Under the pieces are notes generated by a model. That model did no database searches and was not told the origin of the DNA. It saw only the letters and a program-made list of their open reading frames with translations. A stretch of DNA of 64,000 nucleotides, from the NCBI GenBank assembly GCA_002067795.1, contig MVQI01000082.1, positions 62,001-126,000 of the forward strand, given 5' to 3'. Within the stretch, counting starts at the first letter, position 1, and the number at the start of each line of letters is the position of its first letter. A program made the position numbers and the translations under genes. This DNA comes from Methanosaeta sp. PtaB.Bin039. GTDB taxonomy: Archaea > Halobacteriota > Methanosarcinia > Methanotrichales > Methanotrichaceae. Below, piece after piece: positions 27,570 to 36,863 of the stretch.

Positions 27570-28730
27570 TCAAACCTTGGCTATGGCCTCCACCGGGTCC
27601 ATGCGGGAGGCCTTCCAGGCCGGGTAGATGCCGGCCATCAGGTTTACAGCTATCGAGAACAGCACAGCGTAGATATAGTGCTCTGGCTTGATCTCGACGG
27701 TCATCCTGGAGACCATATAGATCTCGCTTGGGACCTCGATCTGATAGCTCATGATGAGCTGGGCTGTGAGGTATCCAACCAGACAGCCAATCAAGGCTGA
27801 CGGCGGTGCCAGGATAACGCTCTCTATTATGAATATCTTCATGATAGCCAGCCGCCTGGCCCCCATAGCCATCATTATCCCTATCTCCTTGGTGCGGCGG
27901 GTGATGATCATTATCATGGTATTGGCGATGCCAAAGCCGGCTATGATGAATATCAGCACGTAGAACACAAGGGCGAACCAGGACTGGGTCTCTATCAGCT
28001 TGAACAGATCCCGGTTGGCATCCTCCCAGCTCTTGGTGACGTAGCGAGTGCGGGCGTTGAAGTCCGCAGCTATGTACTGTGCCTGTCCGAAGTCGCTTAG
28101 CCTGGCAGCCACCTCGCTTACCACGTCCCCCTTGCCCATCAGGTCCTGGCATGTCTGGAGGGGAAGGTACACCAGGCTCTTGTCCAGTGATGTGCCCGTC
28201 TTTAGGATGCCGGCCACCCTGACCTTCACAGAGCGGTTCTGCCTAATGAGCGTCATCTCCTCTCCACTCGTCAGGTTCATCTCTTCCGCCAGGGCCGATC
28301 CTATGAAAGCGGAGTTTCTGCGGAACTTGAGATCCAGGAAGTCTCCGCTCACGGTGTCTTCGCCCACCCGCATCAGGCCCTCTTCGTCCTCGGGATTCAC
28401 GCCTAATATGTCCACTCCCTGCACCTTGTCCCGGTGCTTGGCAGCGGCCTTTCCTTTGAGCCTGGCAGAGACCGCCTCAACTGCAGGATATTGCCGAAGG
28501 GCCTGCTCGATTGTTCTATAGAGTTGGATCTCTTTCTCATCCTCTTTCGGCTCCACCACCAGGTGCGGATTGTTCTCAAGGGTGTTCCTGATGACCTCCT
28601 CCTTGAAGCCCCCCATCAGCCCCATCATGACCACGATGATGGCCACTGCCAGGGCCACCGATAGGACGGTGAAAAAAGCCATCCTCGGATTGCCAAGGAT
28701 GTGCTTGGAGGCCACGGTCAGCTCAAACAC
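27570..28730 (-). CDS. ABC transporter permease, FtsX/LolCE/MacB type (second of pair)
   Basis: A 386-residue membrane protein. One N-terminal membrane helix (MAFFTVLSVALAVAIIVVMM) is followed by a roughly 200-residue extracytoplasmic domain (about 40-250), then three C-terminal helices. These include FGIANTMIMIITRRTKEIGI, the FtsX-family coupling motif, and AVNLMAGIYPAWKASRMDPVEA at the end. Such permeases do not move substrate through the membrane but transmit force to surface substrates or lipoproteins. A GTG start is used. It lies 91 nt after the paralogous permease. The likely ATPase is 22597-23391. Confidence 0.9.
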   Translation of the reverse strand: MFELTVASKHILGNPRMAFFTVLSVALAVAIIVVMMGLMGGFKEEVIRNTLENNPHLVVEPKEDEKEIQLYRTIEQALRQYPAVEAVSARLKGKAAAKHRDKVQGVDILGVNPEDEEGLMRVGEDTVSGDFLDLKFRRNSAFIGSALAEEMNLTSGEEMTLIRQNRSVKVRVAGILKTGTSLDKSLVYLPLQTCQDLMGKGDVVSEVAARLSDFGQAQYIAADFNARTRYVTKSWEDANRDLFKLIETQSWFALVFYVLIFIIAGFGIANTMIMIITRRTKEIGIMMAMGARRLAIMKIFIIESVILAPPSALIGCLVGYLTAQLIMSYQIEVPSEIYMVSRMTVEIKPEHYIYAVLFSIAVNLMAGIYPAWKASRMDPVEAIAKV

Positions 28731-28821
28731 TGGCTCGCCCCCGGCCAGATTCTTCCGGCCCAGCAGGTCAAGGGATTTTGCCGGTCTTGGTCCGACTCAA
28801 TGGGGCTTGCATGCCGCCGGC

Positions 28822-29985
28822 TCATGAGTGAAGCGCCTCCACCGGATGCAGTGATGAGGCCTTTTTAGCTGGATAGGCCCCTGCCAGTACAGAGAGAAAT
28901 ACTGCCGTCAGAAGAATGATTAGTATGTCGGAGAGTCGGATTATGACGGGCAGGGTCAGCTCCTGGCCGCCTGGAGCTTCCATCCTGATCTCCAGGCTCT
29001 TCAGCCATAATGAGAATACGAGGCCAACGAGCACGCCGGCCAGGCCGCCCAGGAATCCCAGCATGGCGCTCTCGATCAGGAATATGGTCCTGATCTGGCC
29101 GGGGCTGGCACCGGTCGCCATCAGCATCCCGATCTCCGCCGTCTTCTCGAGGACCAGCATATACATGACGCTGGCTATGCCGAAGGCGGCGATGATCATG
29201 ATCAGCAGCATCACTATGATGTTTTGGAAATTCTCTATAGCGAGTGTGCGAAGTATCTCCGGGTAGAGCTGCTGCCAGCTGTCGACGCGGTAACCGGTCT
29301 TCCTGAGCTCCCTTGCAATTGAGTCGGCGGAATAGACGTCATAGAGCTTGATATCAATGGCGTTGACAACGTCGCCCTCGCCCAGGAATCGCTGAGCTGT
29401 TGTCAAGGAGACAAAGGTCATGCCTTCCGGAAAACCCTGTGGCGGCTCGAATATCCCGGTTATGAGGAGGCTGGCTGGCCGGGCATCCGGAAAGCTTGCC
29501 TCAAGCCTGTCTCCCAGCTTTGCCTCCAGCTTATCCGCCAGCTGCTTTCCAATCACGATCTTGTTGTCCTGCTGGATGGATAGCAGGTCGCCCTGGACCA
29601 TGCCCTGGGCGATGCTTGGGTAGATCCGCCCCATCTCCCATGGATAGGCACCTATCAACTCCACGTTCTCAACATTGTCTTTGTGGGATAGGGATGCCGA
29701 TGTGCCCAGGAATGGGGAGACGGCGCTCACTCCTTCCAGGGACCAGATCCTATCAATGAGGGTGCGATAGAGGTAGATGTAATCCTCCTTCTCTTTTGGG
29801 GTGACCGATACGTGTGATAGGTCTTTTACTATTATGTCGAAGAGGAGGTCCTGAAAGCCGTTTTGCAGGGAGACCGAGGTCAGGGATATGGCCACGGCCA
29901 GGCCGATGGCCAGTATGGAAAGGGCGGTCTGCCTCTTGCGGGATCTGATGTGTCTTTTAGCCACCATGGTCTCGAACAAGCCCAA
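28822..29985 (-). CDS. ABC transporter permease, FtsX/LolCE/MacB type (first of pair)
   Basis: A 387-residue paralogue of the next gene, with the same layout: an N-terminal helix (TALSILAIGLAVAISLTSVS), an extracytoplasmic domain with SHVSVTPKEKEDYIYLYRTL, and three C-terminal helices with FGIASVMYMLVLEKTAEIGM and GAYPAKKASSLHPVEAL. Two different permeases suggest a LolC/LolE-like heterodimer. The TTG start at 29985 follows GGTG; an ATG at 29967 is possible. A TATA box at 30017-30022 gives a very short leader. It is divergent from the exported protein at 30324. Confidence 0.9.
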   Translation of the reverse strand: MGLFETMVAKRHIRSRKRQTALSILAIGLAVAISLTSVSLQNGFQDLLFDIIVKDLSHVSVTPKEKEDYIYLYRTLIDRIWSLEGVSAVSPFLGTSASLSHKDNVENVELIGAYPWEMGRIYPSIAQGMVQGDLLSIQQDNKIVIGKQLADKLEAKLGDRLEASFPDARPASLLITGIFEPPQGFPEGMTFVSLTTAQRFLGEGDVVNAIDIKLYDVYSADSIARELRKTGYRVDSWQQLYPEILRTLAIENFQNIIVMLLIMIIAAFGIASVMYMLVLEKTAEIGMLMATGASPGQIRTIFLIESAMLGFLGGLAGVLVGLVFSLWLKSLEIRMEAPGGQELTLPVIIRLSDILIILLTAVFLSVLAGAYPAKKASSLHPVEALHS

Positions 29986-30323: not shown

Positions 30324-31367
30324 ATGAGACATCTTGCATTGGTCTATCTGCTGTCGCTCCAGCTCTTAGCCGGGACGGCTCTCTGCCAGGAGGTAGTTGA
30401 GGTCTTCTCAAGTGTGGAGTCATGTGACATAGCCATTGCCGGCGATGTTGGCAACTGCACCCTTCGGGCTGACATGTACTTCCAGGGCCGCGAGCTGCAG
30501 AGCAAGAGCATATCGGTGGACGGCCCGGGGACCTGGATATTATCGTGGGGCGTATCCGATCCCAGGGAAGGCTCTTATCAGGTTTGTGCCAGCCTTCTCA
30601 TCGACCAGGATGTCGTGTCCAGCCGATGCCACGATTTTTCTTATGGGGGGCGGGTTCCCGTGCGCTTCGATGTGCGGGACTTCCTGGCCGATTCAAGGGG
30701 CATGCATCTGAGCATGCTGGCCACAGATCCCACGATCGTTGATATCTATTACATGTTGATACAGGGCGAAAAGGCCCTTTATATCAGCCGGGATAAGGGG
30801 GTCAGGATCGGCGGAGGTCGAATAGTGTCCGACCTCCAGTGGGTATGGCCCCAGATTCTGGAGGATGGGGAAGCATATTCCGGGCGGGTCAAGATCGTGG
30901 AGCTGAACCACGGCCAGACCCGGGCCTTCATGAACAGTTTCGTCGCGAAAGAGGATGCCAGGATAACTGAGACCTATGAGGACGAGATGGGTGCATCGGC
31001 GACTGTGCTGGGCGACTCTCGCGTTCCTTTCCAGGGCAGCCTCCTCTTTGAGCTGAGCCAAAACGGAAGCATCATGGCATCCATAGAGAAGAGTACGCCC
31101 ATATTGCTGGCCGGAGATGACGAGACTGTGGAGATATCCTGGAATCAGACGCTTTCACCCGGGATCTACCGGCTAAGGGTGCAGCTGCTTGGCCGGGATA
31201 GGGCCGTCCAGGACCTCCGGGAGAGCATCATAGAGGCAGAGCCAATTGCCAGAGAGGTCCAGTCGGAGGACGCGTCTCCGGAGAAGAGCCCATCTTTGCC
31301 AGCGGTGTTGGCTGTATCTCTCGTCCTGGCATCCTGGGCTGCTCTCAGGCCAAAGAAGCGCTCCTGA
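30324..31367 (+). CDS. Exported, membrane-anchored protein of unknown function
   Basis: A 347-residue protein with an N-terminal signal (HLALVYLLSLQLLAGTALC), a beta-rich extracellular part and a C-terminal membrane helix with basic end (LPAVLAVSLVLASWAALRPKKRS). This is a type I topology with the bulk outside. Cys residues in VESCDIAIAGDVGNCTL and VCASLL...SSRCHDF could form disulphides. The segment TVEISWNQTLSPGIYRLRVQLL looks like an Ig/Fn3-type strand pattern. ATG 30324 is the first in-frame Met directly before the signal sequence; the longer frame upstream is unlikely. It is divergent from the LolC/E-like permeases, so it may be a partner of that transporter. Confidence 0.7.
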   Translation: MRHLALVYLLSLQLLAGTALCQEVVEVFSSVESCDIAIAGDVGNCTLRADMYFQGRELQSKSISVDGPGTWILSWGVSDPREGSYQVCASLLIDQDVVSSRCHDFSYGGRVPVRFDVRDFLADSRGMHLSMLATDPTIVDIYYMLIQGEKALYISRDKGVRIGGGRIVSDLQWVWPQILEDGEAYSGRVKIVELNHGQTRAFMNSFVAKEDARITETYEDEMGASATVLGDSRVPFQGSLLFELSQNGSIMASIEKSTPILLAGDDETVEISWNQTLSPGIYRLRVQLLGRDRAVQDLRESIIEAEPIAREVQSEDASPEKSPSLPAVLAVSLVLASWAALRPKKRS

Positions 31368-31444: not shown

Positions 31445-32008
31445 ATGAAGTTGTGCATGGCCCTTGTGCTGCTGGCAGTGACTGCGTTGCTGCTTGCTGA
31501 CTCGGCATGTGCTGGGTGCGGGCGCTGGGTGGTCAGGGAGACCACAGATTATCTGGACGATCCTGCCTTCGATGCTCTTGCAAAGTCTGCACAGGTCGAG
31601 GACTCTGCCGTCGGCCAAAACCAGAGCGAGGGTCAGTCGCCGGCCGAGCCGTCCGCAAGAGACGAACCGCCAATTGTGCCTGATCCAGATCCTTCCGGCA
31701 AATGGTCGTTGCAATTAAACGGCACCTCCGCAGCCTCGATCGAGCTGATACTCATGAATACCGACGGCCGTGTCGGCGGCTACGGCAACCTCACCGAAGG
31801 CGGCAGCTCTGCCACGGCGATGGTCTCGGGCACCATGTCAGCCGGTTCACTGTCTCTTCAGGTAAGGACAAATGGCAGTCGTCCTCAGCGAATCTACCAG
31901 CTCGATCTGCAGATGGAAGGCGATTCCTTAACCGGCTCGTACGTTCTAACTGTCGGCGGAATCGAAGCCGGGCGAGGCGGAGCTCTGGGAGGAAGATCGG
32001 CCAGCTAG
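31445..32008 (+). CDS. Small exported beta-rich protein
   Basis: A 187-residue protein with a signal peptide (CMALVLLAVTALLLADSACA) and mature start GCGRWVVRETTDY. An acidic, Ser/Pro-rich linker (about 45-85) precedes a C-terminal domain of about 90 residues with regular beta strands: GKWSLQLNGTSAASIELILM, GRVGGYGNLTEGG, SLSLQVRTN and LTGSYVLTVGG. The alternation suggests a small lipocalin-like or jelly-roll barrel, by eye only. Family not recognised. The ATG is preceded by GGGCTGGGT. Same strand and compartment as the neighbouring exported proteins. Confidence 0.65.
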   Translation: MKLCMALVLLAVTALLLADSACAGCGRWVVRETTDYLDDPAFDALAKSAQVEDSAVGQNQSEGQSPAEPSARDEPPIVPDPDPSGKWSLQLNGTSAASIELILMNTDGRVGGYGNLTEGGSSATAMVSGTMSAGSLSLQVRTNGSRPQRIYQLDLQMEGDSLTGSYVLTVGGIEAGRGGALGGRSAS

Positions 32009-32102: not shown

Positions 32103-32112
32103 AAAATTTATA
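32103..32112 (+). promoter_or_regulatory. TATA box of the KPTY-repeat protein gene
   Basis: aaatttatat lies about 40 nt before ATG 32151, which has GGAGG at 32139-32143. Confidence 0.55.
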
Positions 32113-32150
32113 TGTTGATGGATCATGTGGAGGTCCATGGAGGATCCCAG

Positions 32151-32549
32151 ATGAGAATAGTTAAGTACTGCCTAGTGGTCCTTTCGCTTCTGGGCATGAG
32201 CCTGGTTCTGCCGGCTCTGGCTCAGGATGGGTCGAACCAGGACCAGGTTTATTCTGTTGATAAATACTTCAATCAGAAGCCCACTTACAACATCCTGGAT
32301 AGCGTTAAGGTCAAGCCGACCTATGATGTTGGTTCGTACTTCACCGTCAAGCCAACCTATGACGTCCGCTCTTATGTCCGCACCAGGCCCACTTATGACA
32401 TCCAATCCTATGTCCGCACGAAGCCCACCTACGACATTGAGTCCTATGTGCGGGTCCGCCCGACCTACGATGTTAGATCTTATGGTAAGGCCAAGCCCAC
32501 TTATAATGTGCAGGATTACGTCAAGGTCAAGCCCACTTATGTAATCTGA
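32151..32549 (+). CDS. Exported 12-residue (K/R)PTY tandem-repeat protein
   Basis: A 132-residue protein. A signal peptide (YCLVVLSLLGMSLVLPALA) is followed by QDGSNQDQ and then almost only repeats. The unit is 12 residues, (K/R)PTY(D/N)(V/I)xSYV(R/K)x. Seven full copies (for example KPTYDVRSYVRT, RPTYDIQSYVRT) follow a degenerate first unit, and a half unit KPTYVI ends the protein. Strictly alternating polar/hydrophobic residues suggest a short beta strand per unit, so a beta-solenoid or stacked amyloid-like fibril is conceivable. There is no membrane anchor. ATG 32151 is seven bases after GGAGG; an upstream ATG at 32112 lacks support. No family is recognised. The repeats make it rich in Tyr and basic (pI probably high). 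Confidence 0.85.
   Translation: MRIVKYCLVVLSLLGMSLVLPALAQDGSNQDQVYSVDKYFNQKPTYNILDSVKVKPTYDVGSYFTVKPTYDVRSYVRTRPTYDIQSYVRTKPTYDIESYVRVRPTYDVRSYGKAKPTYNVQDYVKVKPTYVI
32277..32546 (+). repeat. 36-nt tandem repeat array coding for KPTY units
   Basis: Seven and a half 36-nt units with conserved third positions in parts (aagcccacttatgac-like cores). The DNA identity between neighbours suggests recent duplication or gene conversion. Confidence 0.8.
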
Positions 32550-33099
32550 AATTTGGATTTGCTAAATATAATCTATATAATATTTTGCACCTATCTCAGG
32601 TGCTTTTATTCTCTTGTCCTCTGACATTATCCTACGGCTTCATATCCAATGATCGAATGCCCAATGCTCCAATAATGCGCAGTCGTATTATACAAATATA
32701 TGCTATAATATAAGCTATAATACATATACATACACACACATATGTATGTATATGTATGCACATATGCTATAATATTAATACAACTTTTTCCGGGCACGAA
32801 TCGTAACCACAGTGCTGCCCCCCTCCAGTTTAATGTAGTGTTATTTAAAAATTTAATTGAAACTTATTTGGGCGAACGCGAGGCGTCGAGCCCAGTATAT
32901 ATTTATTTAATATAGTTGTTATGCTATTATTCTGGTATTGTCATTTGGACTGATTGGTGCGGCTCTCCATAAGACTGCTATATCTCCGCACTGACCCTTG
33001 ATATCATCTCATTAGTCATGGATAATTCACAATAATGTATATATATAAGATAGAGATCAGAATATTACTATAATTTCAAAGATGAAGGGATGGATAGCA
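32550..33099. other. AT-rich spacer with TA/TG simple sequence
   Basis: About 550 nt, much more AT-rich than its surroundings. At 32716-32770 it is a run of alternating purine-pyrimidine (acacacacatatgtatgta), able to form cruciform or Z-DNA. A TATA stretch at 33035-33046 is the probable promoter of the next gene. No frame looks coding. Confidence 0.6.
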
Positions 33100-34089
33100 A
33101 TGAAGATCTACCTTGACCGGAGCGTGTGGTCTCTCGACAGGATTTTATTCAAATCGATATTTATTTTATCGATAGTTGCGGCCGGATCAGCCATGGCGTT
33201 AGCGGCTGATAATTCGACCCTGGACGAGGAAATTCCAGCGCTCTCCGCTGAGATCTCCCATGGGGGGATATTCTCTCCCCAGCCTTCGGTGTGGATATCA
33301 CCTCCAGACGGAACGACCTTTTCCGACCCGGTGACTCTGACGACTTTTGTGATACTCCCCCCCGAATGCTGCGAGATCGAGAATGTCGAATATAGCATAG
33401 ACAACGATACCAGCTGGACGGAGATTCGAGGTATAAGGCTTACTGGTAACGATATATGGATCGGCTCGGGTTGGTCTCTTGATGGCATATGGGATTCGCT
33501 GTCCAATTCGCTGCATACGATCTACTTCAGGGTGGACATGTCGAAGTCTCCCTATTGCGATAACACTAACTGCGGTCTATATGACAACACTAACTGCGAT
33601 CTCTACTACTTCGACTGGCAGTTCTTCAAGGACACATCTCCGACTCCTGAACCATCCGGGCTTGAGATCCTACAACCAAACGGCGGAGAGGTACTGACCA
33701 GGGCGCCTTTCGATATAATGTGGTCTCTTGCCAATCCAAACGACGTAAAACTGATACTGCTGGAGTATTCCAGGGATGGCGGCAGGAGCTATCAATTGAT
33801 AGACAAGATATTCGGCCCTGCCACGAGATACATATGGAGCTCGCCCCCAATCCAGACCAGCGAGGCCAGGATCAGGGTGACTGCAAAATACGACGACGGG
33901 GAGATCCTCTCCGATGAGAGCGACGAGGACTTCACCATCAAGAGGTACTCCTTCATAGCTGGGCCCCGTCCGGGTTATAGCACCGGTTCCGGATCACGGC
34001 TTGGCTACAGCTTCAAGGCTGGACCCAGGCCGGGATACAGCTTTAAGGCAGGGACCAGACCAGGATACAGTTTCAGGACAGGGCGTTAG
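33100..34089 (+). CDS. Exported Ig-like protein ending in 11-residue RPGYSFKAG tandem repeats
   Basis: About 329 residues. A signal segment (FKSIFILSIVAAGSAMALA) is followed by a first beta-rich domain (PSVWISPPDGTTFSDPVTLT...). A Cys-rich loop with repeated DNTNC comes next, then a second Ig-like domain starting LEILQPNGGEVLTRAPFDIMW, a pattern common in secreted archaeal and bacterial beta-sandwich repeats. The last 47 residues are tandem units, (G)PRPGYSFKAG: AGPRPGYSTGSGSRLGYSFK, AGPRPGYSFKAG, TRPGYSFRTGR. The RP-G-Y core recalls the KPTY repeat of the preceding gene. ATG 33100 has GGGATGG upstream; ATG 33082 is possible. Function unknown; probably a cell-surface or sheath component. Confidence 0.75.
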   Translation: MKIYLDRSVWSLDRILFKSIFILSIVAAGSAMALAADNSTLDEEIPALSAEISHGGIFSPQPSVWISPPDGTTFSDPVTLTTFVILPPECCEIENVEYSIDNDTSWTEIRGIRLTGNDIWIGSGWSLDGIWDSLSNSLHTIYFRVDMSKSPYCDNTNCGLYDNTNCDLYYFDWQFFKDTSPTPEPSGLEILQPNGGEVLTRAPFDIMWSLANPNDVKLILLEYSRDGGRSYQLIDKIFGPATRYIWSSPPIQTSEARIRVTAKYDDGEILSDESDEDFTIKRYSFIAGPRPGYSTGSGSRLGYSFKAGPRPGYSFKAGTRPGYSFRTGR

Positions 34090-35880: not shown

Positions 35881-36288
35881 TCATAGGAACCGCTTGAGCT
35901 GGCTCATCAGGGACGCCTTGGGATAGGCCCCCACCAGGCGGTCGACAGCCCGACCATTTTGGAATACCAGCAATGTGGGAATGGCAGTTATGCCGTACTT
36001 GCGGGAAGTGAGTGGGTTTTTGTCCACATTCAGCTTGCCAAAGACGGCTTTGCCCTTCAGCTCCCGGGCCATATCCTCTATCACCGGTGCAATGGAGCGG
36101 CAGGGTCCACACCACTCGGCCCAACAGTCAACCACAAGCAAGGGGTACTGTCTTATCGCAGCCTCTATGGTGGCATCGCTTATCTCGACCGGCTTGTCCG
36201 GCAGCTCCAGCACAGGGACCTCCGGCTCGCTCAACTGCCTCTTAAGCTGCTCCATCTTCTTCTTTCTTATCTCATCAAGCTCGTCCAT
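35881..36288 (-). CDS. trxA: Thioredoxin with an N-terminal charged extension
   Basis: Thiol-disulphide oxidoreductase of 135 residues. The active site is WAEWCGPCRSIAPV, with the cis-Pro in GITAIPTLLVFQNG. The first 30 residues (MDELDEIRKKKMEQLKRQLS) form a charged helix absent from standard thioredoxins. It resembles the N-terminus of archaeal PDCD5-type proteins and may mediate dimerisation or nucleic-acid binding. It is the last gene of a minus-strand group with DUF1638 and the alanine dehydrogenase-like gene, 5 nt after DUF1638. Confidence 0.93.
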   Translation of the reverse strand: MDELDEIRKKKMEQLKRQLSEPEVPVLELPDKPVEISDATIEAAIRQYPLLVVDCWAEWCGPCRSIAPVIEDMARELKGKAVFGKLNVDKNPLTSRKYGITAIPTLLVFQNGRAVDRLVGAYPKASLMSQLKRFL

Positions 36289-36293
36289 CCTTC

Positions 36294-36863
36294 TCAGCCT
36301 CCAAGACTCCTGGCCGCCTGCCTGATCAGGGAGCTGAAATGCTCCAGGTTGCCTGGCACGACCTCGTATGTCAGCAGGGTGAAATCCAGGAAGTTCAGCA
36401 GGTCGTCCTCGTACTTTGCTGCATTGCCCAGGGTATCGATGAATACCGCTCCCTTGAAGCAGCCCATCTCCAGCCTGGCCTCATCCTGCCCCCATCCGAG
36501 CTGGCGGAAGATATCAGGCCACACCTCTATCCAGCCTGGTGACAGGTAGAAGTATAGGCCACGGGCAGCCCGCCGTTCCACCTCTTCCCTGGTGATGAAG
36601 GCATCTACGCAGTTCTGGCAGTCCAGCAGGGCAGCCCCGTACTCAGCCAGCATCTCCTCCATACGGGGGTGGCAGGCTCCAAAGGCCACAATGGTCCGCT
36701 TTGCCCGGCAGGCTTCCAGGGCATCTCTCAACTTGGACTCCAGGGCATCGAAGCTCACGTGCAGTCCGGGGTCCAGGTAGTGGACCTCCGTGGGAAATCC
36801 CAATGTACCTGCAAGATGTTCGATCTCCGGGCGGAATACGCCGCACGCTATCAGCGCGTACAT
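36294..36863 (-). CDS. DUF1638 family protein
   Basis: A 189-residue protein of the DUF1638 family, common in methanogens and anaerobic bacteria with corrinoid methyl metabolism. Conserved parts seen are ALIACGVFRPEIE, the DPGLHV segment, FGACHPRMEEM with a Cys-His pair, DCQNCVDAF and the LSPGWIEVWP stretch. The cysteines and histidine (C7, CHP, CQNC) could bind a metal, but no activity is established. It sits between the alanine dehydrogenase-like gene and thioredoxin on one strand. Confidence 0.82.
   Translation of the reverse strand: MYALIACGVFRPEIEHLAGTLGFPTEVHYLDPGLHVSFDALESKLRDALEACRAKRTIVAFGACHPRMEEMLAEYGAALLDCQNCVDAFITREEVERRAARGLYFYLSPGWIEVWPDIFRQLGWGQDEARLEMGCFKGAVFIDTLGNAAKYEDDLLNFLDFTLLTYEVVPGNLEHFSSLIRQAARSLGG

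Follow-up and report, generated by a model that had tools for sequence, protein, structure and literature searches.

The window (the whole stretch of DNA analysed here, 64,000 nucleotides from Methanosaeta sp. PtaB.Bin039) contains a short gene whose product, predicted to be exported, consists almost entirely of a 12-residue tandem repeat. This gene, called here the repeat gene, lies downstream of two divergent permease genes and of two further genes for exported proteins (c5 and c24), and is flanked by its own putative expression signals. The features used in the analysis are as follows.

27570 to 28730, minus strand: second MacB/FtsX-like ABC permease
28822 to 29985, minus strand: MacB/FtsX-like ABC permease, divergent from c5
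30324 to 31367, plus strand: c5, exported protein with three predicted Ig/FN3-like beta-sandwich domains and a C-terminal membrane segment
31445 to 32008, plus strand: c24, exported protein of 187 amino acids, between c5 and the repeat gene
32104 to 32115, plus strand: archaeal TATA-box-like element AAAATTTATATG 5' of the repeat gene (read from the sequence, no statistics)
32139 to 32143, plus strand: Shine-Dalgarno-like GGAGG, 7 nt 5' of the ATG (read from the sequence)
32151 to 32549, plus strand: coding sequence of the repeat protein (open reading frame, orthologues, purifying selection)
32151 to 32225, plus strand: probable cleavable signal peptide, residues 1-25, ending in PALAQ (sequence, by eye)
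32247 to 32276, plus strand: N-terminal partial unit VYSVDKYFNQ (sequence)
32277 to 32528, plus strand: seven complete 12-residue units (sequence)
32529 to 32546, plus strand: C-terminal partial unit KPTYVI (sequence)
32587 to 32607, plus strand: terminator-like hairpin GCACC-TATCTCA-GGTGC followed by TTTT (weak: 1 found, 0.5 expected)
35881 to 36288, minus strand: thioredoxin, conserved neighbour of the repeat gene (locus comparison, Pfam)
36294 to 36863, minus strand: DUF1638 protein, conserved neighbour of the repeat gene (locus comparison, Pfam)

The repeat protein has 132 amino acids, of which about 107 would form the mature chain (about 12.7 kDa, pI about 9.4), with no cysteine and 15% tyrosine. 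Residues 1-25, MRIVKYCLVVLSLLGMSLVLPALAQ, were considered by eye as signal-peptide-like, and the cysteine of a lipobox is absent; besides this segment no domain is predicted, and the protein has no membrane anchor. The original prediction of a signal peptide followed by seven complete 12-residue units, with partial units at both ends, is borne out by translation of the open reading frame. The perfectly regular length that it described is also found, the motif [KR]PTY occurring eight times in the window protein (residues 43, 55, 67, 79, 91, 103, 115 and 127) with a spacing that is always 12. Identity at lag 12 is 0.526, against 0.086 in composition-preserving shuffles (z = 15.5; 0 of 20000 shuffles as high), and identity at lags 24 and 36 almost equals this value. 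The proposed consensus, (K/R)PTY(D/N)(V/I)xSYV(R/K)x, has to be relaxed for unit 1 (KPTYNILDSVKV) and unit 6 (RPTYDVRSYGKA), and the Pro-Thr-Tyr that was held to be invariant is so inside the window protein, but position 3 may be T, L, V or I across orthologues. Between units of the window gene, 56% of identical residues have different codons, which excludes fresh DNA slippage and indicates that it is the amino-acid unit that persists.

Sequence searches of Pfam, NCBIfam, PHROG and PDB gave no usable family for the repeat protein, in agreement with the earlier statement that no named family has this unit. A match to KH_BICC1 (4.5e-6, four members) was judged to be a chance fit to periodic sequence, and a weak match to a function-less PHROG family (1.9e-4, one member) a chance fit to repetitive sequence. 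Searching 100 relatives with a single sequence gave matches mainly in Methanotrichaceae, and two weak matches outside this family were lost when a profile was used. The family profile, built from 16 orthologues, matches 47 of 50 Methanotrichaceae genomes and all 11 genera (11/11), and the repeat gene is present in 33 of the 33 high-quality genomes of the family (completeness 90% or more, contamination 5% or less). When 295 genomes sampled evenly across the phylum were searched with the profile, 11 matches resulted, all of them in Methanotrichaceae, and none in the 284 other genomes. A single-sequence scan of genome contigs found no relative, an alignment of the thermophile group searched against genome contigs matched four named records (three of them Methanothrix sp.), and viral contigs gave no match to the repeat protein. 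The family is real, conserved and lineage-specific, and is undescribed as far as the searched libraries and the literature go. Members of the Methanotrichaceae, the Methanothrix family, are filamentous sheath-formers. The repeat gene is mostly found once per genome, with extra diverged copies in genomes G006 and G003; the second copies at L047 1715-2146 (G006) and L076 8430-9038 (G003) both end in PF(V/M)CNIV, with a cysteine near the C-terminus. The orthologue of genome G016 is at 392286-392765 of contig 1, minus strand.

Across orthologues the unit can be written [KR]-P-[TLVI]-[YF]-[DN]-[VI]-x-x-Y-[FVS]-[RK]-x, and successive motifs lie exactly 12 residues apart in 81 of 110 cases. The unit positions that are kept are K1, P2, Y4, [DN]5, [VI]6, Y9 and [RK]11, the unit search itself having demanded [KR]P and Y, F or N at position 4. 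Subtypes diverge strongly, for instance into KPLYDLQAYSKN repeats or, in one genus, into proteins with an Asn-Thr-rich, sequon-dense N-terminal part. These divergent subtypes share one locus, and the conserved gene order establishes orthology across very different versions: the repeat family is a fast-diverging orthologous family. Purifying selection acts on the mature chain: dN/dS is 0.03-0.11 in the thermophile group (genus g6), and two other genera have values of 0.12-0.38. The signal peptide of g6 orthologues evolves much faster than the repeats, and array length there shifts by 12 or 36 residues (proteins of 112, 148 and 160 residues). Superunits of 36 residues differ in number among close relatives and have lineage-specific substitutions in common (L031, L033, L034, L035), which suggests concerted evolution of the copies; copy number is thus tolerated while the motif is held. 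The N-terminal mature part is rich in N-x-S/T sequons at L040, L041, L049 and L089 (up to 20, versus 6.5 in shuffles), and such a density suggests a putative glycosylated stalk in one genus.

Composition bears on the possibility of an aromatic-rich surface conduit or adhesive, acting in electron uptake or cell contact by analogy with the proposal made for MspA. Some orthologues contain 15-16% tyrosine, and a conductive aromatic sheath protein has been proposed in Methanothrix (PMC10470525); however, tyrosine falls to 3-8% in orthologues of genera g2 and g9, so that high aromatic content is not conserved, and such a role seems very improbable. MspA of Methanosaeta thermophila (ABK14853.1, Mthe_1069) is, like the repeat protein, exported, aromatic-rich and from the Methanothrix lineage, but has 60.9 kDa, two cysteines and few homologues, whereas the repeat protein has about 12.7 kDa, no cysteine and a family-wide distribution (PMC6242892, PMC11576556). 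Cysteines that could form inter-hoop disulphides of the MspA type number zero in the window protein and zero in nearly all orthologues.

The conserved order at the locus is c5, repeat gene, thioredoxin, DUF1638, cyclodeaminase-like, reductase-like and Rad50/Mre11-like genes (Pfam assignments in this neighbourhood were made for thioredoxin and DUF1638). In 29 of 47 genomes and 9 of 11 genera, c5 directly precedes the repeat gene in the same orientation, often within 100 bp, the exceptions being genera g6 and g9 and three g2 genomes. The c5 sequence is strongly conserved, and a model of good confidence gives it three beta-sandwich domains (residues 21-305), followed at the C-terminal end by a hydrophobic segment and then basic residues; the domains resemble FN3/Ig-like modules at the domain level only, full-length TM-scores being low. 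c5 is present in most genomes of two other families of the class, and adjoins a MacB/FtsX-type permease in nine of the nine class-level outgroup loci read. On these comparisons c5 is older than the repeat protein. The repeat gene thus looks like a family-specific addition beside an ancestral envelope module, and c5 does not need the repeat protein, since outgroups carry c5 without it. The pairing of c5 with a MacB/FtsX ABC permease is conserved across the class, in Methanothrix as well as in outgroups (window positions 30324-31367 and 27570-29985; L102-L108, L111, L113).

These adjacencies, of the repeat gene to c5 and of c5 to the MacB/FtsX permease, are both conserved and would agree with a repeat protein that is not structural and serves as an accessory of the c5/MacB-type ABC module, e.g. 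as a secreted ligand or substrate. This role is doubtful, given that the outgroup has c5 and permeases without the repeat protein, and that g6 and g9 have lost the linkage yet keep the repeat gene.

An SH-like profile (A4) was built from three proteins, one of which lies at about 703 kb in genome G016, which we take to be the expected place of Mthe_0667/0668. Profile A4 was considered as representing SH because of this position, its multi-copy presence and its distribution: all 11 sampled Methanotrichaceae genomes contain several copies, and two other families have matches in 8 genomes. The window genome has 7 matches to A4, none of them at the repeat gene; on the contig of that gene, the closest SH-like gene is about 76 kb away. 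Two Methanotrichaceae genomes have an SH-like gene at a distance of about 2-5 kb from the repeat gene (L039 12266-12955 and L040 4861-5658). SH sheath proteins occur throughout the Methanotrichales and in some members of the Methanomicrobiales, ANME-1 and Thermofilales (PMC11576556). Compared with these proteins (Methanospirillum WP_011449234.1 and homologues), the repeat protein is likewise predicted to be exported, and is present in every high-quality Methanotrichaceae genome. The SH core, however, is made of two six-stranded antiparallel beta-sheets, while no strands are predicted in the repeat protein (pTM 0.19); SH proteins have 150-350 amino acids or more and many copies per genome, while the repeat protein has 132 and is usually single-copy; and SH proteins extend to Methanomicrobiales, ANME-1 and Thermofilales, while the repeat protein is limited to one family (PMC11576556). 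Judged by sequence, the repeat protein falls outside the SH family.

A sheath or spacer-plug component had been proposed originally, to be supported by wide presence only in filamentous sheath-formers. The protein is indeed universal in, and confined to, the Methanotrichaceae, but it is missing from other SH-bearing families: two further families that include SH-positive members gave no match in their 51 and 55 genomes, a negative that would be weak without a positive control, although the profile used recovers 33/33 good Methanotrichaceae genomes. The repeat protein therefore tracks the Methanotrichaceae and not sheaths in general. It could still have a minor structural part in the Methanothrix sheath or in the spacer plugs, its repeats assembling among themselves into cross-beta rings or concentric plug layers, or being laminated onto them. 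Confinement to a sheathed, filament-forming family agrees with this, as do the SH-like genes 2-5 kb off in two Methanotrichaceae genomes and the fact that spacer-plug proteins have not yet been assigned (PMC11576556, PMC6242892). Methanosaeta plugs moreover differ from those of Methanospirillum in form and in alkali resistance, withstanding 5 M NaOH (PMC6242892), so that a family-specific plug protein is expected. On the other side stand the two families with SH-positive members that are devoid of the repeat protein, the 76 kb that separate it from the nearest same-contig SH-like gene of the window genome, the absence of cysteine in the repeat protein when hoops are disulphide-linked (PMC11576556), and the absence of strands in the AlphaFold2 model. 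A sheath or plug component is on balance unlikely, although it comes first among the alternatives to the reading that we prefer.

The structure of the repeat protein was predicted by AlphaFold2 from a 32-sequence alignment, with a mean pLDDT of 58, a pTM of 0.19 and a repeat region devoid of strands, a result to be read with the facts that this alignment is shallow and repeat-rich, that it leaves disorder and a self-assembled cross-beta state indistinguishable, and that self-assembling repeats can defeat AlphaFold2. The signal helix (residues 2-26) is the sole confident part. The stacked beta strands or solenoid of the original prediction thus did not appear, the mature chain being predicted without strands and without a fold (pLDDT 58, pTM 0.19). 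By the charge-hydropathy criterion the window protein falls among disordered chains, and many orthologues fall among folded ones. A true cross-beta amyloid fibre, or a beta-solenoid of stacked 12-residue rungs, would agree with the exact 12-residue register, the richness in tyrosine, the hydrophobic/polar alternation at unit positions 4-7 and the functional amyloid known in the lineage (PMC6242892). Besides the AlphaFold2 result (no strand, pTM 0.19), it is opposed by the scarcity of Gly, Asn and Gln, unlike curli-like repeats, by the proline and several charges that every unit contains, and by the failure of the alternation at unit positions 8-10; we consider it as improbable as an accessory of the ABC module.

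Our preferred reading, with a probability of about 0.5, is that the repeat protein, secreted, family-specific and usually single-copy, serves in the Methanotrichaceae cell envelope as a flexible multivalent linker or scaffold. It is probably an undescribed part of the cell envelope, a location that we infer and with which the dense N-x-S/T sequons of one genus, as read from sequence, would fit, since they agree with an extracellular chain. After this linker or scaffold we rank, in decreasing order, a sheath or plug component, then the c5/MacB accessory and the cross-beta fibre on the same level, and last the conductive or adhesive coat; these readings overlap. In the mechanism proposed for the linker, the signal peptide would export a chain that displays, in tandem copies, a single short linear motif, [KR]Px[YF][DN][VI]xxY[FVS][RK]x. 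Each 12-residue unit would be a binding motif, largely unfolded alone, that may become ordered on meeting a partner surface or its own copies. The partner would be another envelope layer, for which the best named candidate is c5 with its MacB/FtsX-type ABC module. This reading is favoured by the signal peptide, the restricted distribution, the shared locus with c5, the retained 12-residue spacing and the purifying selection; the loss of c5 linkage in two genera, the outgroups that have c5 but no repeat protein and the mixed charge-hydropathy result count against it.

Mussel foot protein-1 is a secreted, extended protein with decapeptide repeats rich in Lys, Pro and Tyr. The likeness to the repeat protein is one of working only, both being secreted with short Lys/Pro/Tyr-rich tandem repeats, as the unit is different and there is no homology; Tyr hydroxylation is not known in archaea. 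Bacterial fibronectin-binding adhesins contain tandem beta-zipper regions, i.e. disordered short motifs that become ordered by strand addition, and are comparable in the way they work, with tandem short motifs that in the adhesins order on a beta-rich modular partner (PMC4412574). They have no sequence relation to the repeat protein, which is archaeal and anchorless, and whose partner is only a candidate.

A more specific proposal, which we regard as rather unlikely and somewhat less probable than a sheath or plug component in the broad sense, is that the repeat chain, present family-wide, links the sheath to the S-layer or to c5, the number of units setting the spacing; it would then be the first constituent identified in the spacer plug or inner sheath matrix of Methanothrix. 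In this genus the make-up of the spacer plugs, and the proteins that connect the sheath with the S-layer and the membrane, await assignment (PMC11576556, PMC6242892). A universal, usually single-copy, exported and family-confined protein offers a definite candidate, for which existing sheath proteomes can be examined. It also defines an undescribed repeat family among methane producers that rank with the most abundant.

Two neighbouring genes deserve mention. Downstream of the repeat gene, positions 33082-34089 (plus strand) encode an exported protein with a C-terminal array of RPGYSFKAG, about 10 residues per unit, whose homologues in other Methanothrix-family genomes (about 545-565 amino acids) have a common tail such as YSFRAWLKPPYSFRAG. 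This tail was tried as a common envelope-binding motif and rejected, as the tail profile matched essentially only the protein's own family. c24 was found elsewhere only in G006 among the loci compared. The small exported proteins at 31445-32008 in the window and at L032 8719-9291, from two genera, have an identical segment, AGCGRWVVRETTDYLDDP, the rest being divergent.
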